DNA from: Clavaria fumosa
Lineage: Eukaryota > Basidiomycota > Agaricomycetes > Agaricales > Clavariaceae
Length of the DNA stretch: 64,000 nucleotides
NCBI GenBank assembly: GCA_951802425.1
Contig: OX637806.1
Coordinates: 434,001 to 498,000, forward strand
Reading direction: 5' to 3'
A model generated the notes under the pieces. The model saw only the letters and a list, made by a program, of their open reading frames with translations. It made no database searches and was not told the origin of the DNA. Made by a program: the position numbers and the translations under genes. Within the stretch, counting starts at the first letter, position 1. Each line of letters starts with the position of its first letter. Of the stretch, positions 11,483-58,319 are shown one piece after another.

Positions 11483-11608
11483 AGGAGACCATGATGGTTG
11501 AACTTAGAGGAAAATTTCGGGTGTCGTGACCTGATCAACAAACATCGCGCTGACTAACAGTCACATGACCTCCACTCTCATGGGGCTCGAGGCTTGAGGG
11601 GGGGGTAA
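11483..11608 (+). mobile_element. 3' end of an upstream A-type internal region
   Basis: This matches 22651-22778, the stretch directly before the 3' LTR of element A, including the polypurine tract and the first four codons of the antisense gene. So the LTR at 11609 is preceded by the tail of another A-type internal region. An LTR-internal-LTR tandem sharing the middle LTR, or a truncated neighbour, would give this. No target duplication of A can therefore be read on this side. Confidence 0.75.
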
Positions 11609-13072
11609 TGTGAGGACCCATCCATTTTTCCTCAACCTAACAACTCTATCACCACTCATGGACCTCCCGACGTTCCCCTACCACCTCACGAACCCCCCTA
11701 CACTCTTCCGAAACCCGCTATCAACTTCCGAACACCTCTCAGGCCTCCATCATCTCCTCACGACACTCGCGATCATACCACCATACTCGCATCACCTCCC
11801 GCCACCTCACCTTACACGTACTCACCGCCGAACCCACTATTCGATGCTCAACACGCTCTTACACGACTCCTGCAGCAGCACATGACTTGCCGCACGGCAC
11901 ACCGGTGCTACTCGCGTTACTCGCATTACCAGCGTTACTCATGTGACATACCACCCAAAGACCGCCCAAGGTCACCTGCCTCACCAGCACCGTCCACGTG
12001 ACTGCTCACCTGACCGCGCAACCTTAACGATGAAACGCGCCACCAGCAGTCAAGCTGTGTACCCTTTCAAATTATGTTCTCCCTTCTTCTTCTCAGTCGT
12101 CTATAACTGCGTTAGCCCTGGACCAAGCCCCTCTGCCCAGTCGTAGTTACACATACGCTTATTTAGTTAGGTTGCGACCCATGACCGGTCATGTCTGCGA
12201 CCTTACCTATGTTTAGTTTACCCCTCGCGATCTTAGTAGAACACGCGCACGGTCACTCTACGACTAGTTATACCCCGTACTACTATAGTCTTGTCACCTG
12301 GCACTCTCTGTACTTTCCCTTTCTCGTCATACTCCCTGCACGTACATATATATAAGGTCTCACATGTACTTATGGTACTCTAGACTTGATATTGACACAC
12401 ATTGGTTTAAGCTTGAGGCTAGTACACCCTTTGAGCTTGGAACCATTACGATTGATAGGTCTTGTCTCTCTTGGTGACCACAAGATCGCCAAGACACACT
12501 CTACTCTGTTCTAACTCACCCTCTGCACTCCTACAACTCATGCAATCTAAGTATTCTCTATTGTTCGTCTTGGTACTGATCTTGGAACCCTACAGGTTCA
12601 CCTGTCAGTTGGCAAAGTCATCGCCTTCACCGACACATTTCTCAACACCATTGCGACCACCGCGACCCTTCCAGCATTCTCTATTTCTTTCACCTTGTCT
12701 TTTTCTTTCTCTACGCTTTGTTGGTCGACCTCGCGACCTTCTCAGTGTTACCACTTTCTCCCACCTTGTCTATTCCTTTCTTCACGCTTCATCGGTCGAC
12801 TTCGCGACCCTCTCAGCATCACCCATTTCCCCCCTCCTCATCAATTTCCTCCTTTATGCTTCGTCTACCGACTTCACGACCTTCCCAACTATGTCTTCCT
12901 CCTTTATACTTGTCTTTCCTCACTCTTACATCTTCTCAGACGTCTTCGCGACCTTCCGGGACCGAGCATCCTCGACTGTGCTCAACAGTTGATTGGTCTT
13001 AGCGAGTTTCCAGCATAGGTCACCAACAAGTCGATCTCCGGCACTACTATCGAGATGGGACAGGCCCTAACA
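11609..13072 (+). mobile_element. 5' LTR of element A
   Basis: It begins TGTGAGGACCC, ends GGCCCTAACA, and is 1464 bp. A TATA-like box TATATATAA at 12347-12355 lies about 30 bp before AGACTTGATATT (12382-12393), the likely start of the transcript. Confidence 0.9.
12382..12393 (+). promoter_or_regulatory. Putative self-primer of element A
   Basis: AGACTTGATATT sits about 30 bp after the TATA-like box. It is the exact reverse complement of 13074-13085, directly behind the LTR. Tf1/sushi-type elements use the 5' end of their own RNA as primer in just this arrangement. Families D and H show the same pairing with different sequences. Confidence 0.65.
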
Positions 13073-13085
13073 TAATATCAAGTCT
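13073..13085 (+). promoter_or_regulatory. Primer binding site of element A (self-complementary)
   Basis: TAATATCAAGTCT starts at the first base after the LTR. It does not begin with TGG, as sites for a tRNA ending in CCA do, but pairs over 12 nt with 12382-12393. Confidence 0.65.
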
Positions 13086-13633
13086 TCCCCTCGCCCCACC
13101 ACTCAACACCCGGATAACACAAACCATTATGTCTTCCAGTCACACTCCTCCCCAACCAACCACTCATCACTTCCAGACACGCACAGGTAGTCGCGCGATC
13201 ACTCCAATGATCTTGGAGACTACTCGCGAGCCACCTACCACCATACAAGAATGACCCGTGTCCGTCGTTCAATCACAGCCTGAAGAATCCGCCCAAATCG
13301 CACCTAGCCACGCCTCATCCCCGCGCGAAGAAGCCGAGACCCTCGTGGAGCAGCTCGGCTACCCACGCTTCGACCGCCCCTGCCACCATACTTACCAAAC
13401 AATACAAAACCAGAACTCTTGATGAAGAATTAGCATATCTCATTGAGACGACGAATCTCTACGAGGCATTGGTACAATTAACAGATGGATTCCGAGCTAA
13501 CCCACAGAACTGACTCTACGAGAGTCAACGCCAATATCCAGGCACTACCAACCGAGGAGCCCTGTCTCCCCCCGACCTGGATACCCCCTCGCAACCTCCG
13601 AGAGTCGCCCAGCCTACAAGAGGACCCCGAGAC

Positions 13634-15085
13634 ATGGCCCCACTTTTCCAAGTCGCAGCACAATCCCTGCAGAACTTTGCCAACCCTGCCGCACCCGACG
13701 AGCGACCCGCCATTGTCTCCAGGATCCCTAGGTACACCGCCCCTCGCAGCAGCTGGCCTACGTGGACGCAGCCAGCCACTACTCCGAGTAGGGCGTTCCC
13801 TCGCGACCTTATAGGGACCGAAGCAACACTTCAACCTGCCCCTCGCCTCGAGATTCCAGTCGAGCCCTTCCGCATTCCACAACCGGAAGCGCGACCAGTA
13901 CCCCAGATGGAGACGCGACCAGCATCTCGCCCTCCGTCACAGACTGAAGCCCTGCAGGTCCCTCCGGTCCCCCCTATGCCTCCACACCCCGCCACCGTGC
14001 TTCGAGATGAGGCCCCTGGTACCCACCACCACCATTACTATTACCAGGCCCCTCCCTCCGAAGGACCATCGGCCCAAGACGCCTTCGCTCGAGAATCTAA
14101 GCTCGACACCAGACATCCCGAACCGTTCAATGGTCATGACTGATGCAAGTGGAAACCTTTCGTCACAGAATGCCTAATGACTTTCTTCGCCAAGCCCGTA
14201 ACCTTCCAAGGAGATCACGAGAGGGTTACTTTCGCCGCCTCTTACCTCACGGACACCGCGCAGAGCCACTACACCTCCCTCCTTCAATTCAATGCTGAAC
14301 ACCCGGCTCTACATTCCTGGGAAGGATTCATCTGCGAGTTTGGAGGGATGTTTGGAGTGGTCAACACACAGATTGAAGCCGACCAGAACCTTCGCTTGTT
14401 GCAGATGGGCGAAAACGAACGGTTTTCGAACCACATCATCCGTTTCGAGTCCTTTGCTTTCGAATCCAACTGGAACTCGGCCGCCTTACAATCCGAACTC
14501 TATCGCTCAATGTCCACACGCATCAAAGAGGCCATGAAAGTCATTCCGCGACCCACGACGTATCAAGAACTTCGTGATTTGGCAATGCAAATTGACCAGA
14601 GGCACTGGGAGTATGAGAGTGAGACCCGCTGAACTCAATTCCGCGCTAACCCTCCTACTCCTCGTCCCCCTGTTCAACAAGGCGGAAATCGCAATTACCA
14701 AGCGACGTCATGACCTTACCCCACCGCTGGAAATAATCCTACGATGCCCCGACCAGCCGCAGGGAACCCCATGACTTCACCACGACCCACCAATCCGCCT
14801 TGCCAGCCGAATCCGAATCCGAACTCGCCCTACGTTCCCCTTAGCGATGAGGAACGAGAACGTCGTTGTCAGGGAAATCTCTGTATGAGATGTGGAAAGC
14901 CCAGACACTACAGTGCTGCTTGCCCCGATCAACAAGTAGCCGGACGAGCTGTCTTCACGCTAGAGGAAGGAGAGGAAGAATTACAGGAAGAATACAAAGT
15001 TGAGGAAGAAGTGGAAAAAGATGTGGATGACCCGCACGAAGAGTTAAATGAGGAAGCGACTCAGGAGCTTCCGGGGAAACTCTGA
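13634..15085 (+). pseudogene. gag: Gag of element A, broken by TGA codons
   Basis: The frame runs through a Pro-rich N-terminal part, a Gag capsid domain (words FNGHD, WKPFVTECLMTFFAK, LQFNAEHPALHSWEGF, MQIDQRHWEYE) and a CCHC knuckle, CMRCGKPRHYSAAC (C-x2-C-x4-H-x4-C), ending in an acidic tail. Premature TGA codons stand at 14141, 14630 and 14711. The same frame extends upstream to about 13382 with a further TGA at 13511, so the true start is farther 5' than the ATG at 13634. All four stops are one C-to-T change from CGA. Pol follows in the -1 frame. Confidence 0.85.
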
Positions 15086-15564
15086 GTTGTGACAAACCAA
15101 CCCCCATACTTGCGTGGGCTGCGACTAGTTCCTCTTCCCCTCAGCTTCCTTGCGACTTTTCTAATACGCCCATTGCTTCCCAGTCCTCCCAATCTTTCCT
15201 CATAAAGACACAAATACCAGATTTCAGCTCGATTCCCTTAAATACTCTTGTTGATTGCGGCACATCAATGAATTTCATCGATTTCACCCTCGCGAACTCC
15301 CGTCCAAACCTCTTAATGCCACTTCCGCAACCTCTACTGCTTCAATACTTTGACGGAAGTTCCTCCAGTTCCAATATAACCCACTACGTCCATGCTAATA
15401 CGAAATTCCCCGATGATACTATCCAATCCATTAAGTTCCTCATCACTAAAACTCATCCTCTCACTCCTGTGGTTCTAGGGCTCGATTGGTTGCGAACCTG
15501 GAACCCTAGGATCAATTGGACCAACCTCACTTTTAGTTTCGGACCAGTGAACTTAGTGCAGTAG

Positions 15565-16385
15565 TTGCTATCAAATAGTTAACTAGACATAATAGCTGTG
15601 TATTTATTGACATGAAATAAATAAGCCCAAATACAGACAAATATTTATCAAATGCCTCTATATTGAAATTCAGCTTATATAAACATCAAAATATGGCCTC
15701 AAATTAAAACATTATATAAAATTGAATGAACTTCCTGAAGCTGTGGCAGCACATTGCCATGTTTATATTATCATAATTACAAGTGCTGTGCTCAAATTAA
15801 TGATTCAATTCACAAGTACTACAACTGAGTTAATTAAACCTGCTTGTAACTACTGCACTCACAAATAGTAGACTCAAGTTGTGCATAGTGTGCAGAAATT
15901 ACTGTGTAAAAGTGCACTATGGACCAAGTTAACTGGCAATATTTTATGACTGCTATTACTGTTGAATAGTATACTACATCAATCAGCAGTTGCTGGATCA
16001 AGTTAACTGGAATATTTTTACCACTGCTTTTGCTGTAGAATAGTATACTATACTAACCAGCAGCTACTGGACCAAGTTAACTGGTGTTATTTTATGACTG
16101 CTATTACTGTTGAATAGTATACTACAACAATCAGCAGCTGCTGGATCAAGTTAACTGGAAATACCCTGTAGCTGTTATTACTGTAGATTAGTATACTATG
16201 TTCACCAGCAGCTGCTGGATTAAGTTGACTTCTACTGTACTGTAATAGTATAGTCAGCATTAGCTGGACATAAGTATACTGCCTTCACAGCATTTGCTGA
16301 CATTAGTAGGATCAGCTGTAGCTGGCTTGAGTTCAAAGCATTTTGGTACATTAACTGATATTTAGTATACTAAACTAGCTGGGAC
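15565..16385. mobile_element. CpG-free AT-rich insertion in the PR-RT linker of A
   Basis: About 820 bp with no CpG sits inside a CpG-rich pol gene, between LGLDWL of the protease and the RT linker. It shifts the frame by one, matching the frame change seen on either side. It contains five tandem 74-bp units. I found neither clear terminal repeats nor a target duplication, so its class is unknown. Confidence 0.65.
15921..16290. repeat. Five 74-bp tandem repeats
   Basis: GGAYCAAGTTAACTGG begins at 15921, 15995, 16069 and 16143, with a variant at 16217, an exact 74-bp spacing. Each unit also has GAATAGTATACTA and CAGCAGYTGCTGG, the latter a short palindrome. Confidence 0.9.
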
Positions 16386-16695
16386 TATTGTTCGGACAGA
16401 CAGCCCGCTCCGCAACTATCCCTCTCACTCTTCTGGACGTGAAACCCCTGAGTAAACCTCCCCCTGACCTCACGAACTCGGCACTGAAACCCTCTAAACC
16501 CCCGTGAGTTCAATTGGTCAAGGCCACCACGCTTCGCCGCTTGGAGCAACAAGGAGAATTTATAGGTCTCCTATACTTCCAACCTGCAAACAACCCCCAC
16601 GACGACGAATTCATACTCGCGAGTTCCGCAACCACTCAACCCCCTCCGAAACCCAAAGAAACAGTCCCGCACGAGTATCACGACTTCCTGGACGT

Positions 16696-17602
16696 TGTAA
16701 GGATAATATGTGGTTTAAACATAGAAACATGACAGATACCGATTATCCGGATATTTCGGGATCCAAAGCAATCGCGTCCGATACGATCCGATAACAATCC
16801 GACACCATCCGATAACGACCGATACTTATCTGACATCGGACTCTCCGGTCTCTGACTCTCCGTGAAGATCACAGCCCGCGGGTCTCACACACCGCCCACG
16901 CCTTTCTATTTCATCACTCCAGCATGGTCAGCGCTCGACATACTCACTATTCCATTCCCATTCCTTTATTTCATATAACATGCTGTAAATTTCATATTGT
17001 GATCCCTTTCAACCATTCAATCATTTGAACGTTTCAAACCCTTTGCAGTACTTTGCCCATTGTTCCTAATACCCCTTTGCTATACCAGCCCCACTTTCCT
17101 TCAGTTTACGAATGGTCCGGACATGTGCTACTCATCAGACATTTCATTCCTCTGAGCTACTCAATTCCCTTGCGATATAACTCCTCCATATAACCCTTCA
17201 CACGACATGGCGCTGTTCCATATGTTTTCCGGACATTTCCGTACATTCCAATTTGCTGTACTTACAGAACTGTACTTGAGCACACTTCGGACCATACGGA
17301 AATCCAGCTTTTTGAACGCCCACATCGTGCTGTGATTTTTAGCAGGCTCACCTTTCGTCGTACCTATTGATCCGCTGGCCTTCGTCGTTGCTGGCCCCTC
17401 GAACCTTCGATCCAAACATCGGACTTTATCGGATCCGATACCGGATACTCCAGACAACGTATATTTTCACTCTCTAAACCTTTTGCACTCAACCTCTACA
17501 TCCTCCAAGGTTTTGTCTAGTGTACCCGTTGCGTAATAAGACCCCCTGAAGAACCCGGCTGCGAACATCTATTTGCAGCCAACACCTGTACAGCCTACTA
17601 CA
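16696..17602. mobile_element. Element E, copy 1 (907 bp, TGTA...TACA)
   Basis: It interrupts pol of A between EYHDFLDV and FSEDLAREL. It starts TGTAAGGATAAT and ends CCTACTACA. The flanks are ACGT (16692-16695) and ACAT (17603-17606), a 4-bp target duplication in which one copy has lost its CpG. A second copy at 36068 shares both ends. No coding frame is evident, so it is a solo LTR or a short non-autonomous element. Element plus duplication (911 bp) accounts exactly for the frame change in pol. Confidence 0.8.
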
Positions 17603-20600
17603 ACATCTTTTCTGAAGATCTAGCCCGGGAATTACCTCCGCACTGTGACTACGACCACCGAATTGAACTTGAGGAAGGTGAAACACCTCCTCACGGGAAG
17701 CTGTACAACATGTCAGAAGTGGAGTTAAAAACATTAAAAGATTATTTGGACAACATGTTGGACAAAGGCTTCATTTGGCCGTTGAAATCCCCCGCAGGTG
17801 CACCAGTACTCTTTGCGAAGAAGAAAGATGGAAGCCTTCGCCTCTGCGTCGACTATCGAGGTCTCAACAAGATCACCTGCAAAAATCACTACCCCATTCC
17901 TTGAATTGAGACCCTCGTCGACCAATTACGCTTGGCCAAAATCTACTCGAAGATCGACCTCCGTGTTGGGTATAACAACGTGAGGATAGCTGAAGGAGAC
18001 AAGTGGAAAACTGTGTTCCGCACTCGCTACGGCGCATTCGAATATCTTGTCATGCCGTTTGGACTCACGAACGCACCCGCGACCTTTCAGCACTTTATGA
18101 ACGATATCTTTCACGATCTGGTCGACGTCAACATAGTAGTCTACCTCGACGACATCTTAATCTATTTGGACAACCTCGAACAGCATCGCGACCACGTCCG
18201 AGAGGTCCTACGACATCTACGCAAGGCAGACTTACACGCACGACCCGAGAAGTGTGATTTCCACACCACGACGGTCGAATACCTTGGAGTTATAGTGTCC
18301 CCCGACGGAATTGCCATGGATCCTTCAAAAATACAGGCCATTCTAAGTTGGCCTGTACCCACGAAGATCCGCGACCTTCAGAGCTTTTTAGGCTTTGCTA
18401 ATTTCTATCGAAGATTCATAGATAACTATTCCGGCATTGTTATTCCACTTACGTGACTCCTCCGCAAGGATATGCCTTGGAAGTGGAGCCCACGATGCCA
18501 AGAAGTCTTCGATATCCTCAAACAAGCCTTTACCGAAGCTCCCGTCCTCCAGCACTATGACCCCGATCACCCCATTACCCTTGAATGCGATGCTTCCGAC
18601 TACGCGATAGCGGCCATTCTCTCTCAAACTGATCCTGCGACTAACGAGCTACGTCCCATCGCTTTCCACACACGTACAATGATCGCCGCAGAGCTCAACT
18701 ATGACATTTACGACAAAGAGCTCCTTGCGATACACAATGCGTTCAAGCAATGGAGAGCGTACCTCGAAGGCGCGCGATACCAAATTCAGGTCTTTTCAGA
18801 CCACAACAACCTACAATATTTCACCACCACGAAGCAACTCAGCCGCTGACAAGCCTGCTGGGCAGAGTATCTTTCCAGTTTCGATTATATTATTCATTAT
18901 CGAGCAGGAAAGTTAGGCGTGAAGCCAGATGCCCTCGCACAACGACCCGACATCTACCTGAAGAAGTCCGACCAACCCACGACTAATGCACAAAACAACA
19001 AGGTCGCGATACCGCTGGAACTACTTCGAGCAACCATTATCCTCAACGAAGAAGCCCTGATTTCGCGAATTCAACACGCCCCTCGCGACTCCTACTTCTC
19101 CAAGAAATCACACAGCGCTTCACAAGGCCACGACAAGGCGTTCTCGCTCTTGCCCGATGGCTCACTACTACTTCGTAACAGTAAAATATATGTCCCCGAT
19201 CACGACTCCCTCCGATTCGATATCTTATGCTCCAATCATGACCACAAACTACGAGGACATCCAGGTATAAGGAAGACAACCCAACTAATAAATAGGTTGT
19301 TTTTCTGGCCAGGACTCCGAAAGGACGTAACCGTCTACATCCGTGGTTGTCACACCTGCGTAAGGGCAAAACCCGTCCGACACAAACCCTATGGACTTCT
19401 CAAGCCCTTGCCCATAGGCGAGCGACCTTGGTCTTCGATTTCGATGGACCATATCGAAGCCCTCCCCCTCTCCGCGACCTTTGACTCGATTCTCGTTGTT
19501 GTCTGTCGACTTACGAAACAAGCGATTTTCATCTCTACCAATACTACCAACACCACGAGAGAATTAGCCCAGCATTTCATCACCCACGTCTTTTCAAAGC
19601 ATGGGCTACCCGCGGATATAGTGTTGGATAGAGGAAGATTATTTGTTTCTAAGTTCTGGTCTTCGTTATGCCAAGCTTTGGATATTACTTCAAATCTCTC
19701 CACAGCTTACCATCCCGAGACTGACGGACAAACAGAACGAGTCAACCAGGTTCTAGAGCAATATATCCGAATATATACGAACTACCAGCAAGACGACTGG
19801 AATTACCAACTCCTGCTCGCCGAGTTCGTATACAATAACACCCCTCATAGCGCGACTGGTGTCTCCCTGTTCTTCGTGAACAAGGGATACCACCCTAGAC
19901 TCATGATTTCTCTTGACGACGTACCTGCGCACGAAGCTCATATGGTTGCGACCGATCTCAAGATGCTTCACCAGCATCTACAAGACCAACTCAAGGTTGC
20001 AAACGAGGCCTACTCGCGCTTTGCGGACCCGAAGAGAGAAACTACGCCGGATTGGAAGGAAGGAACAAGAGTGTGGTTAGATTTGCGGAATGTGAAGACA
20101 AAGAGACCAATGAAGAAACTGGACTCGAAACGAGCCGGACCTTTCCCCATACTCGCGAAAGTTTCGACTCACGCATATTGTCTCCAGTTACCGCAATCGA
20201 TGCGAGAAATTCACGACGTTTTCCACGTTTCGTTACTCGAGAAGGTTTACGACAACGCTTTTCCCCAGTGACAACAGCAACCCCCACCCCCTATCGAGGT
20301 CGACAGCGAACAACACTATGAAGTCGCTGATATACTAGATTCTCGAAGGAGGGGTAGGAAAGTGCTCTACCTTGTACGTTGGGAAGGTTACGGACCTGAG
20401 GACGACACCTGGGAAACCATAGAATCACTTTCCGGATCGAAGGAACTCCTCGAAGATTTCCACGCGACCTACCCAGACAAGCCTCACGCAACCCGCGCAA
20501 CTCAATAATTTTTCCTCACCTTATTTTTGCCTTTCGTCTTCGTTTTCTCACTTCGAATTTCACAGTAATATATATACGCAATAAAAATACAACAAAGAAA

Positions 20601-20620
20601 AAATCTATCTACTGGTTGTG

Positions 20621-22662
20621 CTACTGGTTGTGAGCTTTTTCCTTCCCCTTTCGCGACCCTTCTACCCCATCCCCACCTTCCACACTCGCGACTTCTTCTT
20701 CCTCTCCCCCCTTATCCTCCTTTCCAACCACAGGACCCTTCAACTCCACACCCCACTGGTCCACCCTCGGGAGATCCAATAGTTCCCTCCGCACGCGACG
20801 CTGCTCCTGCTCCGCCCATTTCTCCACCCATGGTGGGAGCTCTTGAGGTGGCTTCAGCAAGAGGTCTTCATAGGCAAAGAAGACTGTTTCGAGGCCTCGT
20901 CGTCCTCGAAATCGAGCCTCGCGGAGCTCGCCGACCATCGTCGCACACCGACTGCACAATTCTAGAAACAAACCATCAGCCCATCGTCAAGAATACGAAA
21001 TCTGCGATGACTTACCTCGTTCCTGCTCCCTCGACGCCGATAACTCCCCCTCCATCTTCCCTACAGTCGTGAACAATCCTATAAAAAGGACACGAATTAG
21101 TTCATTTTATACTCACGACTGTAGGACTTACTGTGTTCCAACTCCTCCGCCTCCACAAGCCTACGCTGAAGCTCCTCCAGTTCAATCCTTTGATCTAGAT
21201 AAACAGGAGAATCAGTTAGAACGTCGCGAGGTGAAATTACGACTTACCGGCCCATTCCTTTTTCACTGTCGCGATTACCCCCTTTACTTCCTCAAATCCT
21301 TTGCGAGTCTTTCCCGTCGACGCCAACCACTCTACGGGCAAATTAGCTTATTTCACACTCACGAGAGTTGACTTACCTTCTTTCTCCTTCTTCAAATCCT
21401 TTACTTCGCGACGCGAGTCCCTTAATTTGGTCTCCTGGTCTGAGGAAACAAGGAAATTACTTTGTGACACAGTAAAACAAGTGAATACTTACCTTCCCAG
21501 TCACCCTCAAGCGCCTCGAAATCCCTCTCCACCTCCACTATCCGCACCCTCAATTTCGCGATCTCCGCATCCACCTCCTCCCTCCCTTTCCCTGCCAACA
21601 TGTGAATTCAGTAAAAACACGAAAAGCCAGGGAGCATTGGACACTTACCTTTGTCACCCCTCCGCAATGCTACCAACTCGCGCTTCGCTACCGCCAGCTC
21701 TGCATCCAACTCCGTCTCCCAATGCGACTTGTATACCCACGCAATCTTCTGCATGGGTTCCGCGACTTGCTGATGGAGCGTCGCGAGCTCCCTCTCGAGA
21801 TCGGCCCTTGGGACCAAGATCCCCGCAACCTTCCCTCCCTCCTCCACCAACTCCCTTGACGACACCGGTTTCACGACTCGCCTTTTTGTCGATGGACCGG
21901 GTGTTGGGGACCGCGACCGAGCCCTGGTTCGTTTCCCACGAGTCGGCCAGGTAGGAGTCCCCAGGACGGACAGGGTAGCATACCCTGCCCCCACTTGACT
22001 TGCGACCTTCGGAGTCGCCACCCCCAGCATTTCCGACCCTTCAGCGCACTTCAGCGCCTCGTCGACCCGCGCGTCATCCCAACCGTATTCATTTTTGACG
22101 CGCCATCGCCGAAATTCTTGGACCCAGGAACATTTGCCATGGTCCTCTGCGCACTGGCGACACTTGCCGGCAGTGCTACGCACACACTGCTGGCCCTTTG
22201 CGACACAATTGTCACAGTCCTGTGTTTTAACAATTAGAAGGGATGAGTGGAACGAGAAATACTATTACGCACCTCGCGCTCCTTCTTGTTCCACTCCTTA
22301 TTCTCCTTCACTGACCCGATTTTCTTCCAAGCTTTCAGAAATTCCGCAGGCGATGGGTCAGCCCCACCCGCGACTTCGCCCCTTATTCCGCTAGGGCCCA
22401 CAACATTTTCTTCCGCCCGACTTGGGCCCGCAACGCCACTCCTCGTTTCGCTAGAGCCTGCAACATTGCCCTTCTTCTTTTCGCGCCCCGCGGTTTCTTC
22501 GCGAAGATGCGCGCATCGCTCTTGCTCGGCCTTTTGGTGGGCCAACATCTCGGCCAGCGCCTCTTTGTCGCGGCTAGCCTCACCCCTTTCGAACTCCTTG
22601 TATTCGCGCATTTCGTGTTCGAGTTGGGTTCCAGTGCGTTTGAGGACGTTGGAGGAGACCAT
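20621..22662 (-). CDS. Antisense multi-exon Zn2Cys6-like/coiled-coil gene in element A
   Basis: It lies opposite to gag-pol, between the chromodomain and the 3' LTR. I resolve eight exons: 22273-22662, 21649-22219, 21493-21591, 21377-21439, 21248-21331, 21132-21194, 21016-21078 and 20621-20961. Introns are 45-57 bp, GT-AG, mostly 53 bp; the first is phase 0 and the others phase 1. The joined frame is 557 codons without a stop. Residues 132-160 hold six cysteines spaced C-x2-C-x6-C-x7-C-x2-C-x6-C, the fungal Zn2Cys6 pattern. A basic Arg/Ser/Lys stretch near 225-247 could be a nuclear signal, and exons 3-7 form a Glu/Lys/Leu-rich coiled coil. A DNA- or chromatin-binding regulator is an inference. 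Its ATG is 116 bp from the LTR, so the LTR may drive it. Confidence 0.75.
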
Positions 22663-22758
22663 GATGGTTGAACTTAGAGGAAAATTTCGGGTGTTGTGAC
22701 CTGATCAACAAACATCGTGCTGACTAACAGTCACATGACCTCCACTCTCGCGGGGCTC

Positions 22759-22778
22759 GAGGCTTGAGGGGGAGGTAA
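22759..22778 (+). promoter_or_regulatory. Polypurine tract of element A
   Basis: The run GAGGCTTGAGGGGGAGGTAA directly precedes the 3' LTR and would prime plus-strand synthesis. The same run stands before the 5' LTR at 11589-11608. Confidence 0.7.
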
Positions 22779-24227
22779 TGTGAGGACCCATCCATTTTTC
22801 CTCAACCTAACAACTCTATCACCACTCATGGACCTCCCGACGTTCCCCTACCACCTTGCGAACCCCCCTACACTCTTCCGAAACCCGCTATCAACTTCCG
22901 AACACCTCTCAGGCCTCCACCATCTCCTCACGACACTCGCGATCATACCACCATACTCGCATCACCTCCCGCCACCTCACCTTACACGTACTCACCGCCG
23001 AACCCACTATTCGATGCTCAACACGCTCTTACACGACTCCTGCAGCGGCACATGACTTGCCACACGGCACACTGGCGCTACTCGCGTTACTCGTGTTACC
23101 AGCGTTACTCACGTGACATACTGCCCAAAGACCGCCCAAGGTCACCTGCCTCACCAGTGCTGTCCACGTGACTGCTCGCCTGACCGTGCGACCTTAACGA
23201 TGAAACGCGCCACCAGCGGTCAAGCTGTGTACCCTTTCAAATTATGTTCTCCCTTCTTCTTCTCAGTCGTCTATAACTGCGTTAGCCCTGGACCAAGCCC
23301 CTCTGCCCAGTTGTAGTTACACATATGCTTATTTAGTTAGGTCGCGACCCATGACCGGTCATGTCCGCGACCTTACCCCTCGCGATCTTAGTAGAACACA
23401 CGCACGGTCACTCTACAACTAGTTATACCCCGTACTACTATAGTCTTGTCACCTGGCACTCTCTGTACTTTCCCTTTCTCGTCATACTCCCTGCACGTAC
23501 GTATATATAAGGTCTTGCATGTACTTATGGTACTCTAGACTTGATATTGACGCACATTGGTTTAAGCTTGAGGCTAGTACGCCCTTTGAGCTTGGAACCA
23601 TCACGATTGATAGGTCTTGTCTCTCTTGGTGACCACGAGATCGCCAAGACACACTCTACTCTGTTCTAACTCACCCTCTGCGCTCCTACAACTCGCGCAA
23701 TATAAGTATTCTCTATTGTTCGTCTTGGTACTGATCTTGGAACCCTACAGGTTCACCCGTCGGTTGGCAAAGTCATCGCCTTCACCGACACATTTCTCAA
23801 CACCGTCGTGACCACCGTGACCCTTCCAGCATTCTCTATTTCTTTCACCTTGTCTTTTTCTTTCTCTACGCTTCGTCGGTCAACCTCGCGACCTTCTCAG
23901 CATTACCACTTTCTCCCACCTTGTCTATTCCTTTCTTCACGCTTCATCGGTCGACTTCGTGACCCTCTCAGCGTCACCCATTTCCCCCCTCCTCATCAAT
24001 TTCTTCCTTTACGCTTCGTCTACTGACTTCGTGACCTTCCCAACGATGTCTTCCTCCTTTATACTTGTCTTTCCTCACTCTTACATCTTCTCAGACGTCT
24101 TCGCGACCTTCCAGGACCGAGCATCCTCGACTGTGCTCAACAGTTGGTTGGTCTTAGCGAGTTTCCAGCATAGGTCACCAACAAGTCGATCTCCGGCACT
24201 ACTATCGAGACGGGACAGGCCCTAACA
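22779..24227 (+). mobile_element. 3' LTR of element A
   Basis: 1449 bp, TGTGAGGACCC to GGCCCTAACA. It differs from the 5' LTR mostly by CpG/TpG/CpA changes and by a 16-bp stretch present only in the 5' copy. Confidence 0.9.
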
Positions 24228-27180: not shown

Positions 27181-27374
27181 GAGGAAGAAGCCGAGTCCCT
27201 CATAGAGCAGCTCAGTTACCTGCACTTCAACTGTCCTCACCACTGTACTTACCAAATTCTCAATAATACCTGTTGCCAGTACGAAGCAGGAACAACAAAG
27301 AACTGGCATACCTCATAGAGACCACAAATCTTTATGAGCCTTTGGTACAATTGATGGACAGATTCCACGCTAAC
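27181..27374 (+). mobile_element. A'-type internal fragment (gag leader)
   Basis: It matches 13325-13500 of element A (for example GAGACCACAAATCT against GAGACGACGAATCT, and GGTACAATT). It forms the left flank of element B, while the right flank of B is A'-type LTR sequence. Confidence 0.7.
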
Positions 27375-28097
27375 TGTTACGACCCCATCCGCTTGCATAA
27401 GCACTATCCCCGCCCCGGACTCCAAGCTCCATACCAACTCTGATCCGCTCCGCCGTAACTCCGTACGCCCCACTCCGCATCTTCATCGGACTTTACTCCG
27501 CTGACCTTCAGACCATTCGGACTTCGTTCTAGAACCTTCTCCCTCCATCCCCTCATTCTGTTTACTATTGAGAGGATACCCTTGACCCATGGGAGTCGCT
27601 TTTGTTGTTGTTTCTTTGTTCCATGAAAATTGCATAGGCACATGTGGTGAAACTCTCCTAGTAATTTGATATGTACATTGTTTCACATTACTCCTATACT
27701 CTGTCCTTGCAGTATAAGTTTCCACCTGTATCTCCCTGCTCCTCAGTTCGAATATAATGTCTCTTGATCCTAAAAATATCTCTGAGCTTTCGTCCTCATC
27801 GTCCTCGACATTCTCCACATCATCCGACCAACTCCGGCCAACTCCGACGGACTTCAATCAACTTCAGAGTTTTGACTTGTGTTCTGATCCTCCCTTAGGT
27901 ATTGTTCTTGTTTGATAAATAGGGACACGTATATACACGGTGGCACAACACATACGTTGAGGCTGCAGTCCCATAAGTCTCTCTTCCCTTGTTTACTTCT
28001 CCGTTTCTCCGATATCGGACTCCGACCGGACTCCGATAGAACATCTCCGCTCCGCTCCGCTAACCCCTTCGCCGCTAACCTTGTTAGGACCATGACA
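27375..28097 (+). mobile_element. 5' LTR of element B
   Basis: 723 bp, TGTTACGACC to GACCATGACA. TATA-like GTATAAG near 27713 lies about 30 bp before AGTTCGAATATA (27745-27756). The partner LTR differs mainly at CpG sites. Confidence 0.9.
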
Positions 28098-28110
28098 GTA
28101 TATTTGAACT
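28098..28110 (+). promoter_or_regulatory. Putative self-primer binding site of element B
   Basis: TATATTTGAACT (28099-28110), one base behind the LTR, is the reverse complement of LTR 27745-27756 (AGTTCGAATATA) apart from one CpG-to-TpG change. Confidence 0.5.
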
Positions 28111-28866
28111 TCAAACCTCGTATATACAAACTTAACAATGCCTACTACACGTTCCGGTGCTCGACCTCCACCCCCTGTTGCCGACGATGTCGACATTCCA
28201 GAACCGGCCGACAATACTCCGACTCCGAGTGTGTCCGGACCTCCAGACCACGACAAAGAGTCAGATCCCTCAGTCACTGATGACGACGACAAGCTAAATG
28301 AACCTCCGACACCTCGAGCAGAGCGCAAACCAACTCCGGCACGCCTTCTTCAGCAAATTATCAACGCCAACAAGCGCCCGGATACGGTAAAACTACGCGA
28401 CCCCGACACATTCAATGGCTCGGATGCTAAGAAGTTGAAAAGCTTCTTGGTCCAATGCCAGTTAAACTTCCTTGATCGCCCAAGAGCGTTCAAGTCCGAT
28501 TCTCATAAGGTATGCTATGTCCTTTCCTTTCTCCGAGGCTTCGCCTTGGAATGGTTTGAACCAATGATCCTGGATGGTGAAGACCATCCGGTTCTTTCGA
28601 ACTATAAGATGTTCGTTACTCAACTTACAGAGAACTTTGGTCCTTACGACGCGATCCGCGAGGCAGAGTTCGAACTCGAACGCCTCCGGATGCGCGAGGA
28701 CCAGAAGTTGACGAAATATACCATTTCGTTCAACAGATTCGCGTCCATTGTCCATTGGGACGAGTACGCGTTGCAGCGGCAGTTCTACAAAGGACTTGCT
28801 AGCCGCATCAAGGACGAACTGGCCCACGTTAACTGCGCAGACACGCTCCACGGACTCCGCGAGCAA

Positions 28867-28971
28867 GCCAGTGCAATCGATGGCCGTTATTGGGCTTGTA
28901 AGCCAGTGCAATCGATGGCCGTTATTGGGCTTGTAAGCCAGTGCAATCGATGGCCGTTATTGGGCTTGTCA
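28867..28971 (+). repeat. 35-bp unit in three tandem copies inside gag
   Basis: GCCAGTGCAATCGATGGCCG begins at 28867, 28902 and 28937. The units are identical save for the last bases, so the event is recent. Two extra copies add 70 bp, which is not a multiple of three. Confidence 0.95.
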
Positions 28972-29349
28972 GCAGGAGATCTCTCGGGACTCTGTTAAAG
29001 CTCCGACGCCTAACAACACCATAAAAAAGGAGACTTCGGATATTCCCAAGTCCCCAAGCACTTCCGGTGCTAATACCAAGTCTGAGAAACCCTCGGATAA
29101 GCGTCCGGTGAACTCCGTTCCAAAGGTCGCTGAGGGCTCCGCTAACTCTGGTAGCTCCAGCGACACAAAGAAGGCCCATCTGGGTCAGGATGGAAAACTG
29201 ACTCCAGAGGAACGCCAACGGCGTTTCGATAATAATCTGTGCCTCTTCTGTGGAATAGCGGGCCACAAAGCCAACAAGTGTCGTAAGCGGACCTCGCGGG
29301 CCAGTGCCAGCACTGCACAAATCACCTCCGAGGGAGATGACTCCGTGCC

Positions 29350-29356
29350 AAAAAAA
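29350..29356 (+). promoter_or_regulatory. Candidate -1 ribosomal frameshift site (A7)
   Basis: Seven A residues read A AAA AAA in the gag frame, followed by GAT and the gag stop TGA. A -1 slip leads into the pol frame, which is open here. B' has A AAA AAT at the matching place. This fits known X-XXY-YYZ slippery sites. Confidence 0.55.
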
Positions 29357-29358
29357 GA

Positions 29359-32300
29359 TTGAGCAGACGACTCTCCGGCTGCTCCGACTCCGATCGTACT
29401 GAACCGATACTCGATACCCTTTCCTTTCATCGTTCTCTTTCCCTTCTTGCCTCCTCTCCTTCTATTTCGTCTCTGTTCAAAGCTATGATAGACTCCGGCG
29501 CTGAACTTTGTTTCATTGACGCCAAATTTGCTTCTCGCTTCCGTCTTCCGAAAACTCCGGTGACCCCTCAGGAGGTCATTTTTATTAACGGGACCACCTC
29601 CGTATGGGTTACCGAAGTGGTCTGGTTATCCATTCGGCTCTCCGCCATGGATCCGACCGATGTCTTGTGTGTAGTTACCGATCTTGATCCCTCTAGTGAT
29701 GTGATCTTGGGAATGAATTTCCTGTTCCAAAACAACCCGCTGGTTGACTGGATTACTGGCCAGATAAAGCCCAGACCATCTACAAAAGAGGAGAAAACTC
29801 CGAAATCTGATCCGGAGGTTGCACCGGCCTGCACTCTCCACTCTGTCCCTCTGTCCACCTCTGTCCCTCTGTCTGTCTCTGCTCCGTGTGCTCCAGTTCA
29901 AATGTCATCTGCAGCGACTCCGAACCAGACCCGGACTCTGTCTCCATCTCTGCCTCTGTCTCCGTCTTTGACCCAGTCTCTGACCCTTCCGTCTACTCCG
30001 TCTCTCCAGGAGACACCCAAAGTTTCTTTTGTGAATGCTGCTGCATTTGTCACGGCTTGTGGACTTCGCGGGTCCCAAGTCTTTGGCATGACGTTGTCAA
30101 GCGAGTCCGCGCGCGTGGCCTCTGCTTCGTTCAATGTCCCCGACACCACCCCCCAGGACCTCCTCTCCGTTCCGGAGGAGTACAGGGACTTCCCAGATGT
30201 CTTCAGTAAAAAGAAGGCAGATACCCTTGCTCCGCATCAACTGTATGATTTAAAAATCAATCTGCTGGATGGCCAATCCCCTCTGCCAGGTGCGGTCTAC
30301 TCTCTGTCGCAGTCCGAGCTCAGCGAACTCCATGAGTTTTTGGACGAGCACCTCCGCATCGGATTTATCCGTCCAAGCCGTTCTCCACATGGAGCACCTG
30401 TGCTCTTTGTCCGGAAGAAGAACGGAACGCTCCGATTATGCGTTGATTTCCGTGGTCTCAATAAATTGACCAAAAAAGACCGTTATCCGCTCCCGCTGAC
30501 TAAAGATCTTCTCGATGTTCCAGGAAAAGCCCGAATTTATACAAAACTCGACCTCCGACACACGTATCACCTGGTCCGTATCGCTGAGGGTGACGAATGG
30601 AAGACCGCATTCCGCACCCGATACGGATCCTTTGAATGGTGTGTGATGCCTTTCGGGCTCACAAATGCGCCCGCCACATTCCAGCACTTTATGAATGACA
30701 TATTCTCTGACCTTCTCGACACGTTCATGGTCGTCTACCTCAACAACATCCTAATTTACTCCAAGGATCCGAAACTACACGTTGAGCATGTCCGAGAGGT
30801 ACTCCAAAGGCTCCGGGAGCACGGTCTCTTCCTGAACCTGGCTAAGTGTGAATTTCACGCTGAAACCGTGGAGTATCTCGGATTTGTTTTATCTCCGTCC
30901 GGACTTTCTATGGACACGGCTAAAGTGAAAACTATACAGGATTGGCCGACTCCGCGGAAGGTCAAGGATGTCCAGTCCTTCCTCGGGTTCGCCAATTTCT
31001 ACTGCCGCTTCGTCCATGGCTATTCCGAGATCGTCGCTCTGATGAACCACTTGACGCATAAAAACATCGAGTGGCAGTGGTCCGATGATTGCCAGTCCGC
31101 GTTTGACTATTTAAAAACCGCATTCTCCATGGCTCCGATTCTCTCGCACTTCATACCTGGAGCTCTGCTGATAGTTGAAACGGATGCCTCGGACTACGCT
31201 GTCACCACGATACTTTCTACGGTTGCCTCCGACGGTGAAGTCCATCCTATCGCTTTTCATTCCCGCACCCTAGGCGTCTCCGAACTGAACTATGACACCC
31301 ACGATAAGGAACTCCTCGCTATATTTGAGGTGTTTACCGCTTGGAGGCACTATCTCGAAGGTCCTGAAATTCCGGTCGACATTGTTACCGACCACAAGAA
31401 CCTAGAGTACTTCTCCACAGTCCGCCTGCTCACCCGGCGTCAAGCCAGGTGGCCGGAGTTCCTTTCCCAGTTCAATTTTGTGATCCGATTCCGCCCCGGG
31501 CGCCTCGGAATGAAACCCGATGCGTTGACTAGACGTTGGGACGTCTATCCCAAAGAGGGGGATAGCGACTATGCCCGCGTCAATCCGCAAAACCTCTGGC
31601 CGATGTTCTCCAGCGAACAATTGATATCGTCTCTCCGAGCTTCGTCGCTTTACGTACCCGCACTCCGCGCGTCGTTTGTGATTGACGATCATCAACTCCG
31701 AGAGGACATCCAGTCTGGACTCTTGCTCAATCCTGTGATTGTCCCGATCCTAGAAGACCTCCGCTCAAACTCCGTGGACCCTAAGTGGTCCATGGACGAC
31801 GACGGACTTCTCCGCGAGCGTGGACGGATTTATGTACCGGACGTCAATGACCTCCGACTCCGCATTTTACGTGCGAGACATGATCACCCGCTTGCCAGAC
31901 ATTTCGGTCGGACCAAGACTACGGCCTTGGTCTTCAGGGATTATACCTGGCCGAAACTCCGAGGATTTGTATCGGACTTTTGCAAGTCTTGCACGACTTG
32001 TGGTAGGGCGAAAGCCCCTCGGCATAAGCCATATGGAACGCTCAAGCAGCTACCCATACCCGAGAAACCGTGGAATTCCATTTCAATGGATTTCATCGAG
32101 CAACTCCCTGAGAGCTCCAGTTTTACCGCAATATTGGTGGTTGTTGATAGGTTTACGAAGCAGGGGATCTTCATCCCGACGACCGACGAAGTGAACTCCG
32201 CGGAGTTGGCCCGTCTATTTGTATTCCACGTCTTCTCGAAACATGGAGTTCCGTCGCATGTCACCTCCGATCGCAGCTCCGAGTTCATTTCCCGTTTTTT

Positions 32301-33165
32301 TCACTTGTTGGGTAAAGTCCTGGACATGACTTTACACTTCACCTCCGGATATCATCCGGAGGGCGACGGACAGATGGAGCGGACTAACCAGACGTTGGAA
32401 CAATACCTCCGTTGTTACTGCAATTACCAGCAGGACAACTGGTCACAGCTTCTACCCCTCGCCGAGTTTGCCTACAACAATGCCCCGAGTGCCACCACTG
32501 GGGTTTCTCCGTTCTTCGCGAACAAGGGTTATCATCCAAATATCTTGGTATTTCCCAAACGTGAAGTAACTTCGGTCTGTGCCCGAGAGCTTGCTGTAGA
32601 CTTGGATCAGCTGCACCAAGAACTCCGTAACCAAATCGCCGAAGCGCAGAGTCGCTATCAGGGTCCGGCGGACAAACGTCGGACTCCGGCACCAGAGTTT
32701 AAGGTCGGAAACTGAGTATACATAAAGGCGAAGTTTTTCCGTACGACCAGACCCTCCAAAAAACTCTCCGACAAGTTCCTCGGACCTTTCGAAATCATCG
32801 GAGAGGCCGGTTCGCACTCCTTCGTACTCTGACTCCCCGAGGCCATGCGAGCCGTCCACTCCGTCTTCCACATTTCCATGCTGGAGCCAGTCACTCCGAA
32901 TACAATTCCGAATCGTACCATCACCCCACCTCCTCCAGTAGAGATTGATGGAGATTTAGAGCACGAAATCTCCGAAGTGCTCGACTCCAAGATCGACAAA
33001 CGCCGCACCTGCAAACTCCTATACCTGGTGCGGTGGTCCGGATACGAAGGAACCGATGAGGAAACATCCTGGCTTCCCGCTACGGAACTTGTTCACGCCT
33101 CCGAGGCCGTTTTGGATTTCCACCAAGCTTATCCGAATAAGCCCGGACCTCTCAATACCCTCTAG
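29359..33165 (+). pseudogene. pol: Pol of element B: PR-RT-RNase H-IN-chromodomain
   Basis: The long open part (29359-32715) holds protease (AMIDSGAELCFID, VILGMNFL) and reverse transcriptase ([28 protein letters not shown]). The catalytic motif reads VVYLNNILIY, so both aspartates are lost. RNase H (ETDASDYAV, TDHKNLEYF) and integrase (HDHPLARHFG, CTTCGRAK, SMDFIEQL, SDRSSEF, ERTNQ) follow. TGA at 32713 and about 32831 interrupt the integrase tail. The frame then continues to a chromodomain (EISEVLDSKID, YLVRWSGYEGTDEETSW) and the stop at 33163. Pol is in the -1 frame relative to gag. Confidence 0.92.
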
Positions 33166-33277
33166 ACCTTTCTCCATTCACTCCAATACCCCGAAATTTT
33201 TCTTATGCTTCTATTTATGTACATTTTCTGTTCTATACTACTCCATCTCTCGCTTCTCCGTCTTCTCCGAAATAAAA

Positions 33278-33302
33278 AATAAAATAAAATAAAATAAAAT
33301 AA
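33278..33302. repeat. (AAAAT)n microsatellite
   Basis: Five AAAAT units in the untranslated gap between pol and the antisense gene of B. The rest of 33166-33533 is pyrimidine- then A-rich, without a gene. Confidence 0.9.
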
Positions 33303-33533
33303 TCCGTACTTCTGTCTCTCCGTCTCTCCATCTCTCTCCCCGTTCCTTTCTCCGAAAACTCCGAACTTTTTATTTTTTCTCCCAAGCCTATCTCTGAATC
33401 TCTCTTCATCTTCTCCATCTTGTCTTACTTATTTTCCTTCATTTTGCTTACTTCACTCAAGTTCAAAAAATAAAACAAAAAAATTATAAAATAGATAAAA
33501 GAAACAAGTAATGTAGATAAATTATTTATTTTT

Positions 33534-34526
33534 TTAGGCGGAGGGGGGCGAGCCAGGCGACGCCTGCAAAATTCCTTCGGGCTCCTTAAGCCCGGACTCC
33601 GCTCCCACTTCTCCTGCCTCCGCCTCCGCCTCCACCTCTTCCTCTGCCTCTTTCTCCGACCCCACCTCCTTCACCTTTCCCTTCTCCTTCTCCTTCCCCG
33701 TCACCTCCACCACCATGTCCTCCGCCTCCGCTTCCTCCGCCTCCACCCTCAGAACCTCTGCCTTCTCCTTCCTCACCTCCTCCGCTGCCTCTGCCTTCTC
33801 CGCCACCTCCATCCTCTTCCCCCACTTCTCCAAAATCCCGCGGAGAATCTTCCGATCCTCCGCCATGACCTTCCACTCCACTGCGGCCTCCGCCCTCCAC
33901 TCCTCCATCGCAAACACCCCCCTCAGGACCACGCTATGCATGGCCTGCATCAAATTTTTAACCTCCTCCTCCATCCGCCAACCCCGCGGCACCCACATCT
34001 CCGCCCTATCCTCCTCCGACTCCGCGGACCGCTTGGTCCGCGTCCCCTTCGCCTTTTTCCACTCCAGCCTCTCCGCCTCTCCTCCTCCGCACTTCTGCTT
34101 TGCCCCCGCACAGGCGTTGCAGGCCGTCCCCCGCCCCCCACTCAGCCACACACAGGCCACCCCCAACCTATGGCATCGCGCACACTCCGCGCGATCCGCC
34201 TCCGTCTCCGGTGTCGGAGACTGCTTCCTCCCCACCCCTTGCTCCCGCGCCACCTCCGCCACCCTCCGCTTCGCCTCCACCGCCTTCGCCCTCTCCAGCT
34301 CCTCCCGCTGCACCCTATCCGCCGCCTCCCTCGCTTTCCGCTCCTCCTCCTCCCGCCTCCATCGCTCCTCCTCCTCCCTCAACGCGTTAATTTTCTTCGT
34401 GAGGGCCGCGATCTCGGGGTCCTCGTCCACCACGCGAGGTTGCGTGGGGATGGCGATGACGGGTCATGGGCGAGGGCGGGAGGGGTGACTGGGCCCGGCT
34501 CCGGGCGTCAATTGCGTGTTGGACAT
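33534..34526 (-). pseudogene. Antisense Zn2Cys6-like/coiled-coil gene in element B
   Basis: It lies opposite to gag-pol, between the chromodomain and the 3' LTR, as in element A. From the ATG at 34524-34526 (MSNTQLTPGAG) the frame covers 331 codons to TAA at 33534, with one TGA at 34464-34466 where CGA is likely. After a Glu/Arg-rich coiled coil, six cysteines (34089-34184) are spaced C-x2-C-x6-C-x10-C-x2-C-x6-C, again the Zn2Cys6 pattern. A long Glu/Ala/Lys-rich coiled coil and an acidic tail follow. It is a single exon, unlike the gene in A. Base composition is strongly biased, so the plus strand also stays open. A shared regulatory or chromatin role is inference from position and motif. 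Confidence 0.7.
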
Positions 34527-34758
34527 GATAAGTTTTTTTGAAAGGAATTGCCCGTGTTAGGGGCGAGTGGTGGGAGTGATGAGTTAAGGAAGAGAAAAGC
34601 AGAGTGCGATGCACACAATCGTTTTAACCCCCAAAAAAAAAATTTCGGACTCCAATCGAAGCGCCGCAAAACTCCGGTGCTAACTTGATATGGGAGCCAC
34701 GTGTTCACACGGACTTTGGCCACAGGGTCTCAGGGGTTCGACCCTAAGAGAGGGATAC

Positions 34759-35482
34759 TGTTACGACCCCATCCGCTTGCATAAGCACTATCCCCGCCCC
34801 GGACTCCGAGCTCCGTACCAACTCCGATCCGCTCCGCCGTAACTCCATACGCCCCGCTCTGCATCTTCATCGGACTTTACTCCGCCGACCTTCGGACCAT
34901 TCGGACTTCGTTCTAGAACCTTCTCCCTCCATCCCCTCATTCTGTTTACTATTGAGAGGATACCCTTGACCCATGGGAGTTGCTTTTGTTGTTGTTTCTT
35001 TGTTCCATGAAAATTGCATAGGCACATGTGGTGAAACTCTCCTAGTAATTTGATATGTACATTGTTTCACATTACTCCTATACTCTGTCCTTGCAGTATA
35101 AGTTTCCACCTGTATCTCCCTGCTCCTCAGTTTGAATATAACGTCTCTTGATCCTAAAAATATCTCTGAGCTTTCGTCCTCATCGTCCTCGATGTTCTCC
35201 ACATCATCCAACCAACTCCGGCCAACTCCGATGGACTCCGATCAACTTCGGAGTTTTGACTTGTGTTCTGATCCTCCTTTAGGTATTGTTCTTGTTTGAT
35301 AAATAGGGACACATATATATGCGGTGGCACAACACATACGTTGAGGCCGCAGTCCCATAAGTCTCTCTTCCTCTTGTTTACTTCTCCGTTTCTCCGATAT
35401 CGGACTCTGACCGGACTCCGATAGAATATCTCCACTCCGCTCCGCTAACCCCTTCGCCGCTAACCTTGTTAGGACCGTGACA
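34759..35482 (+). mobile_element. 3' LTR of element B
   Basis: 724 bp, TGTTACGACC to GACCGTGACA. A purine-rich run, AAGAGAGGGATAC, precedes it. Confidence 0.9.
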
Positions 35483-36067
35483 GTACTCCAGACTTGATAT
35501 TGACGCACATTGGTTTAAGCTTGAGGCTAGTATGCCCTTTGAGCTTGGAACCACCGCAATTGATAGGTCTTGTCTCCCTTGGTGACCACAAGATCGCCAA
35601 GACACACTCTACTCTATTCTAACTTGTTCTCTGCGCTTGTACAACTTGCGCAATCTAAGTATTCTCTCTTATTCGTCTTGGTACTGACCTTCGAACCCTA
35701 TAGGTTCTCCTGTCGGTTGGCAAAGTCATTGCCTTCACTGACACACTTCTCAACACTGTCGCGACTACCCGCGACTCTTCTATCATCGTCTATTTCTTTC
35801 ACTTCGTCCTTTTCCTTTCTCACGCTTCATCGGTCGATCTCGCGACCTTCTCAGCGTTACCAGTTTCCCCCACCTTGTCTATTCTCTTCTTCACACTTCG
35901 TCGGTCAACTTCACAACCCTCTCAGCATTACCCATCTCCCTCTCCTCGTCAATTTCCTGCTCTACACTTCGTCTACCGACTTCGCGACCTTCCCAGCAAT
36001 GTCTTCTCTTTCTATACCTATCTCCCTTCACTCTTACATCTTCTCAGATGTCTTTGCAACCTTCCGG
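35483..36067 (+). mobile_element. A'-type LTR fragment, left of E2
   Basis: It matches A LTR positions from about 12374 (GTACTCTAGACTTGATATTG) onward, including the self-primer word AGACTTGATATT. It is split from its end (36988-37104) by element E2. Confidence 0.85.
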
Positions 36068-36987: not shown

Positions 36988-37104
36988 CCGGGACCGAGCA
37001 TTCTCGACTGTGCTCAACAGTTGATTGGTCTTAGCGAGTTTTTAGCATAGGTCACCAACAAGTCGATCTCCAGCACTATTATCGAGACGGGACAGGCCCT
37101 AACA
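36988..37104 (+). mobile_element. End of the A'-type LTR, right of E2
   Basis: It continues the A LTR from GGGACCGAGC to GGCCCTAACA. Confidence 0.85.
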
Positions 37105-58202: not shown

Positions 58203-58319
58203 GCAGCCTATACAGTACAGCATGACTCTCTGGCTGCTCCAACTCCAATCATGCTAAAAAGATACCCAATACCCTTTTCTTCCATTGTTCTCTTTGTCTC
58301 TCTGTTTCTTCTTCTTCAG

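Follow-up and report, generated by a model that had tools for sequence, protein, structure and literature searches.

What is the long spliced frame that runs against gag-pol in element A, a chromovirus of Clavaria fumosa, and what could its product do for the element? Element A lies in the 64,000-nucleotide stretch of contig OX637806.1 analyzed here (the window). The initial annotation had described a minus-strand gene at 22662-20621, and an exon-by-exon reading of that strand recovered the same structure: eight exons, 557 codons without a stop, a terminal TAG, and seven introns that all have GT-AG ends and consistent phases at every junction (Table 1). The introns are 45-57 nt long, the first in phase 0 and the other six in phase 1. 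The position assigned to the gene, inside element A between the chromodomain and the 3' LTR and antisense to gag-pol, was also borne out. The gag-pol stop of the element is a TAA at 20506, and the antisense stop lies approximately 110 bp from the gag-pol end. The frame of the pol ORF over 17596-20271 contains TGA codons at 17902, 18454, 18847, and 20269.

Table 1. Features of elements A and B in the window (positions count from the first nucleotide of the window).
Feature	Position	Strand	Basis
5' LTR of element A, 95% identical to the 3' LTR	11609..13072	+	
Element A with TCGCGA: 27 palindromic sites; TCGCG 86 vs. 20.4 expected	11609..24227	.	
Open part of A pol: integrase zinc-binding and core domains, SH3-like domain	18919..20271	+	
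Chromodomain of A gag-pol, on the strand opposite to the antisense gene	20314..20481	+	sequence
Exon 8 with stop TAG; C-terminal block conserved at ~20750-20932	20621..20961	-	
Exon 7, 21 codons, phase 1-1	21016..21078	-	
Exon 6, 21 codons, phase 1-1; absent from L054 and L056	21132..21194	-	
Exon 5, 28 codons, phase 1-1; absent from L054 and L056	21248..21331	-	
Exon 4, 21 codons, phase 1-1	21377..21439	-	
Exon 3, 33 codons, phase 1-1	21493..21591	-	
Exon 2: six-cysteine cluster, basic stretch, start of coil-like region	21649..22219	-	spliced-ORF search, alignments
Arg/Lys-rich stretch, possibly a nuclear localization signal	21866..21934	-	sequence
Zinc-cluster-like stretch	22127..22219	-	cysteine-by-cysteine alignment with element B
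Exon 1, ATG at 22662	22273..22662	-	spliced-ORF search and copy alignments
Polypurine tract preceding the 3' LTR	22759..22778	+	sequence
3' LTR of element A	22779..24227	+	boundaries from TSD-flanked copies L012, L016, L017
Element B with CTCCG/CGGAG: 121 sites vs. 25.1 expected	27373..35485	.	
Element B antisense frame, unspliced, one TGA in the window copy	33534..34526	-	

An open frame of this kind could be a product of chance, or the coding strand could be the sense strand, where two ORFs (217 and 150 aa) face the gene. Chance was assessed with a strict splicing rule (GTRNGT donors, YAG acceptors, and a branch-like motif) and 150 dinucleotide shuffles as controls. Under this rule, the region gave 557 codons and its plus strand 95, and the shuffles averaged 89 and reached 231 at most; a looser donor rule gave 560 and 95 codons, with 150 shuffles that averaged 99 and reached 237 at most. 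Among 102 other combinations of stretch and strand in the window, two comparable spliced frames were found: one of 689 codons that starts at 30619 in the pol ORF of element B and one of 553 codons that starts at 53299 in that of element C, both on the plus strand. The third longest frame had 387 codons. A sense-strand gene was rejected because the 217-aa frame was free of stops in one of 14 matching copies and the 150-aa frame in six of the 15 copies compared (two partial), and neither frame respects the introns. One reverse frame has a low dN/dS of 0.34-0.38, which is explained by its third positions coinciding with those of the antisense frame. With the shuffles far below 557 codons, chance or sense-strand coding is scarcely credible. 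The contrast between the open antisense frame and gag-pol with its TGA codons is weak evidence for a gene, since 10 CGA codons are still present in the antisense frame and, among the 30 best loci, 23 are broken by a frameshift or by a stop upstream of codon 540, which leaves seven with neither defect.

Comparison with the rest of the genome (48.8 Mb in 17 contigs) indicated that the antisense gene is present in many copies and is under constraint at the protein level. Exon 2 as a query gave at least 151 matches, some of them pieces of one copy. All seven intron positions were exactly kept in 13 of the 30 best loci and each single position in 20-28 of them; copies that are 64-70% identical keep six or seven of the seven. 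Exons 3-7 are of unchanged length in 10 of 12 other A-like copies, and the length of intron 2 differs in six. L054 and L056 exactly lack exons 5 and 6, and the reading frame is kept there. Precise intron loss in L047-L056 was also considered and rejected, as L054 and L056 are without these two exons together with the intron sequence.

Selection was measured in 14 of the 30 loci L009-L038, chosen as more complete; the 16 that were set aside were frameshifted, interrupted, or partial, or nearly duplicated another copy (L024 and L026, for example), and L039-L058 did not enter the comparison. The initial annotation had made its reading depend on dN/dS among copies, and this ratio is not neutral, with a median of 0.22 between subfamilies (48 pairs; range 0.16-0.29, dS 0.69-1.18) and of 0.41 within the A subfamily (15 pairs; range 0.31-0.56), where a higher value is expected from decay after insertion. 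The long exons 2 and 8 had values of 0.16-0.23 in three between-subfamily pairs and exon 1 had 0.30-0.55, whereas the short exons are too small for ranking. Purifying selection acts on the antisense protein of A. A non-coding antisense transcript that works through dsRNA or interference, with an incidental frame, would have parallels, as retrotransposon antisense transcripts can regulate without a protein according to available accounts (PMC7264820). Such a transcript is highly improbable here, given that the constraint is specific to one frame (median 0.22 vs. 0.64-1.47 in two shifted forward frames, four pairs), that the cysteines are invariant, and that exon loss keeps the frame.

The gene belongs to the element. 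A chromodomain was found at 40 of 50 loci, in all 40 on the opposite strand, and 55-196 nt from the end of the antisense match in 39 of these; the exception, L057, has a longer match. The other 10 loci gave no chromodomain match. These 10 loci would suit a gene captured from the host or a copy domesticated to serve it, as would 16 Zn_clus matches elsewhere in the genome and the four near-identical antisense genes L023-L026 (on C11, C1, C2, and C4), which are without stops or frameshifts; two of these are less than 10 kb from a contig end and the others are 68 and 153 kb from one. However, the 40 loci with an opposite-strand chromodomain include L023-L026, and a version with the same cysteine pattern occurs in element B. 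A host origin or host function is therefore very unlikely, and the recent capture that the initial annotation had allowed for is not supported.

The boundaries of element A agree with this placement. Both LTRs run TGTGAGGACC...CCTAACA, and 5-bp TSDs (gtggc, ggatg, and cctgc) were found outside LTRs with the same ends around L012, L016, and L017. With these boundaries, the antisense ATG falls within the internal region, 117 bp from its end, and the antisense promoter is presumed to be located in the 3' LTR. An LTR start at 11481 was rejected because the TSD-flanked copies begin at TGTCAGGA. The 128 bp before the 5' LTR (11481-11608) duplicate the last part of the internal region, antisense ATG included, and are probably the remnant of a tandem or recombined element; the window copy has no matching 5-bp TSD. 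Another A-type LTR, at 35483-37104, is interrupted by approximately 920 bp that represent a piece of the A internal region (79% identical to positions 16693-17602).

Introns would be lost from a retroelement whose transposition passed through a spliced sense RNA. The antisense orientation can account for their survival, because the genomic RNA to be reverse transcribed reads them as CT...AC and leaves them unspliced. Antisense-intron retrotransposition reporters use the same principle, in that an intron antisense to the genomic RNA is retained. The antisense frame of A is almost certainly a protein-coding gene carried by the element.

The six cysteines have the spacing C-x2-C-x6-C-x7-C-x2-C-x6-C, which falls, as had been claimed, within the fungal binuclear pattern C-x2-C-x6-C-x5-12-C-x2-C-x6-C, and all six were invariant in the 15 aligned A copies of the 30 fetched. 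The label Zn2Cys6-like is appropriate for this spacing but does not extend to membership in Pfam Zn_clus (PF00172), as no member exceeded the cut-off. One of 15 A members matched that profile at E = 2, the others being unlisted, and three of four B members matched weakly (best E 0.004), with 17.5 bits for the window copy of B against a cut-off of 21. No Pfam family was above its cut-off for the antisense proteins of A or B; other weak matches were to DUF7158 (E 0.0019, two of 15 A members) and Methyltransf_19 (E 0.0064, two of four B members). No relative was confirmed in viral and prokaryote collections. As to a fold with two zincs and six cysteines, single-sequence AlphaFold2 models were of low confidence (pLDDT 63 and 67). 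The A protein shares its cysteine spacing with the fungal Zn2Cys6 transcription factors, from which the A and B proteins differ in being below the Pfam cut-off. The typical Zn2Cys6 layout has a basic stretch and a coil after the cluster, and the A protein is arranged alike.

A PDB search with the whole sequence matched chains named as designed coiled coils (best E 4.5e-7), and no single stretch passed alone. Exons 3-7 are all in phase 1-1, and exons 4-7, with 21, 28, 21, and 21 codons, consist of whole heptads, whereas the 33 codons of exon 3 are not a multiple of seven. A coiled coil in the A protein is plausible from these features, and it looks like one that may be able to grow or shrink by whole exons.

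Element B carries an antisense frame at the same place as A, with the pattern C-x2-C-x6-C-x10-C-x2-C-x6-C and six cysteines that are invariant in four of four B copies. Its protein had at least 151 matches in the same genome, many without internal stops, also at 47-57% identity. The dN/dS of B is moderate: five of six pairs fall at 0.46-0.49, and L079/L080 reaches 0.86. The A and B proteins were paired by hhalign over the cysteine stretch only, with a low probability of 22.6 and an E of 9e-4. Pol identity (for A, of a 450-aa part) was 45% between A and B, 45% between C and D, and 31-38% across the two pairs; A is thus nearest to B, and C to D. Judged by ORF and repeat coordinates, elements C and D seem to have no comparable space after pol. 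The simplest reading is that a single antisense gene may have been ancestral to the A+B lineage. Element E (57253 onward) was considered as a third carrier and rejected, as its minus-strand ORF at 62574-63824 reads, on visual inspection, as the pol of another element. The stretch 57253-61000 is a B-like element with approximately 7 CpG per kb, compared to approximately 134 in B (both strands counted), and represents an old, heavily CpG-depleted copy.

Both elements are enriched in a short word that differs between them. TCGCGA was counted 54 times over both strands of A against 5.9 expected, and the B motif is one-sided, with 111 sites that read CTCCG on the plus strand and 10 that read CGGAG. 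This bias amounts to 57 CTCCG to 6 CGGAG in the B gag-pol, where composition predicts approximately 1.8 to 1; outside gag-pol, composition alone predicts a ratio of 5 to 7 to 1. The motifs are dispersed and also occur in pol and the antisense exons, and that of A is found in introns and LTRs as well. The 3' LTR of A contains 13 TCGCG (2.5 expected) and that of B 14 CTCCG (1.8 expected), numbers that were reached in 0 of 500 shuffles each. In coding DNA, synonymous permutations (1000 each) matched the observed counts 0 times for B pol (45 CTCCG vs. 19.5 expected), twice for A pol (11 TCGCG vs. 3.3), twice for the A antisense exons (25 TCGCG vs. 13.7), once for the B antisense frame (24 motifs vs. 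15.7), and 47 times for the slightly enriched B gag (7 CTCCG vs. 3.6). The motif excess goes beyond codon constraint. The pol of element C, which seems to lack the space for an antisense gene, is also enriched in TCGCGA (5 vs. 0.5 expected, 0 of 1000).

TCGCGA is the top six-base word in four more distant CpG-rich relatives of A (L047, L049, L054, and L056), and its sites turn over while their density is kept: L009 and L025 have 9 and 13 sites with 4 in common, and L009 and L054 have 12 and 13 with 3 in common. Close pairs of CGGAGT occur 2557 times in the genome compared to 478 for the reversed word, and those of TCGCGA 390 times compared to 99 per strand. Eight host loci have 2.0 TCGCG per kb (6.8 in A) and 3.0 CTCCG per kb (14.9 in B), with neither word among their top five, and no TCGCGA enrichment was found in the 3'-flank pieces of L025 and L023 (L069, 2 vs. 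2.2 expected; L071, 0 vs. 1.9). The extended palindrome AAnnTCGCGAnnTT was dropped as too weak (93 sites in the genome vs. 21 for the control), with identical sequence recurring among the sites listed. The LTRs of A differ between 5' and 3' copies at 58 positions, 40 of which are CpG vs. TpG or CpA, so that CpG methylation is likely the main mutational force, and a CpG-rich motif that stays dense under it calls for an explanation. CpGs inside TCGCGA decayed like others in 13 copies (0.250 vs. 0.242 and 0.265), which gives no sign of protection in resident copies.

We consider it an even question whether the whole is best explained by an accessory regulator gene of the A+B fungal chromovirus lineage that acts on the DNA of its own family. 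Antisense transcription of the gene would start in the 3' LTR or beside it, and the transcript would be spliced in A (eight exons) and left unspliced in B. The protein would probably enter the nucleus and could dimerize via the coil-like exons. Its zinc-cluster-like domain, if it binds zinc as the spacing suggests, would recognize the dispersed motif of its own family, TCGCGA in A and CGGAG in B, and the bound protein would regulate transcription or chromatin of the element copies, either as a regulator or as a counter-silencing factor. Zn2Cys6 proteins are known to recognize the half-sites CGG and CGCG, and the B and A motifs would therefore fit such a protein. A nuclear DNA-binding regulator has, on sequence evidence, about equal chances of being right or wrong, and binding to the family's own motif is a tentative and somewhat doubtful part of the proposal.

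It is a real possibility, of less than even probability, that the antisense gene encodes a protein with another job, such as an adaptor that brings the pre-integration complex into the nucleus, a chaperone of nucleic acids, or a partner of the capsid, and that the motifs were enriched by another cause, for instance RNA packaging or a different sense-RNA signal. The strand bias of the B motif (111 to 10) would suit an RNA signal, element C carries TCGCGA without an antisense gene, and CpGs at the motifs are not protected; nuclear-entry and accessory roles have also been suggested for plant antisense ORFs in the accounts available (PMC7264820). On the other hand, the A motif is palindromic and also present in introns and LTRs, and the conserved cysteine pattern is that of a DNA-binding fold.

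The type of gene has precedents, and the suggestion that it is new holds only in part: antisense additional ORFs are already known in plants and as brtn, whereas no spliced antisense zinc-cluster gene of a fungal retroelement was found in searches of open-access PMC papers. The brtn gene was described from Boty-like retrotransposons of Botrytis cinerea (Zhao et al., 2011, as presented in PMC8365987, PMC4227169, PMC5987419, PMC7264820). Like the A gene, it is an additional antisense gene of a fungal Gypsy element with a chromodomain gag-pol. No zinc cluster, eight-exon structure, or family motif is mentioned in the available descriptions of BRTN, on which the comparison is based. In plants, antisense ORFs include gene23 of Grande, that of RIRE2, and TRP28 of Retand (PMC7264820, PMC11963269). 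According to these sources, they also lie between pol and the 3' LTR and are conserved over many copies, and some of their products are nuclear or predicted to bind DNA; the words "intron" and "zinc" are absent from the main texts on them (PMC7264820, PMC11963269). The domains reported for the plant proteins (TRP28, SMC) differ from that of A. HBZ of HTLV-1, as far as its descriptions go, resembles the present proposal in being a nuclear regulator that is expressed in antisense from a 3' LTR promoter. HBZ is spliced and has a bZIP domain with a coiled coil. The A protein is zinc-cluster-like, and no homology to HBZ is claimed.

The closest parallel to the proposed use of the motifs is given by the VANC anti-silencing proteins of Arabidopsis VANDAL elements, which are encoded by the element and associated with a dense short family-specific motif; the VANDAL21 motif is in one orientation, and VANC exon/intron organization is diverse, as presented in the source (PMC5735166). 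Elements A and B likewise combine an element-encoded protein with a dense family-specific motif, except that TCGCGA also occurs in C pol. The VANC motifs are described as mainly non-coding and often in tandem repeats, whereas those of A and B are dispersed and also found in coding DNA. VANDALs are DNA transposons, whereas A and B are retroelements for which motif binding is a proposal, and VANC binding leads to loss of methylation, whereas the CpG-decay test of motif protection was negative here. We regard it as rather unlikely, and speculative, that self-recognition has arisen here independently of VANDAL/VANC, with a spliced antisense gene for a dimeric zinc-cluster protein that would read a family motif kept dense by selection in coding DNA, introns, and LTRs alike, and with motif and protein co-diverging between A (TCGCGA) and B (CGGAG). 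Should the motif link be true, a dispersed DNA word by which a transposon marks itself would be known from two independent cases. In the available account (PMC7264820), no function was known for the antisense retrotransposon genes of plants and Botrytis, and the A/B system offers a handle on them through a conserved domain of DNA-binding type, a pair of lineages whose candidate target motifs differ, and a large number of natural copies. Element A is, in addition, a retroelement with a seven-intron gene, as the antisense orientation would allow.

Two further regions are rich in short words. An approximately 11-kb region (G000:C1:122775-134158) is dense in CGGAGT pairs and has no B antisense protein match among the matches listed; it represents a further family or a decayed carrier. 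Element C contains TAGGAA clusters in both orientations beside the nested element D (44017-44168 and 52344-52526). Unlike the motifs of A and B, TAGGAA of C is mainly local, with few scattered sites elsewhere.
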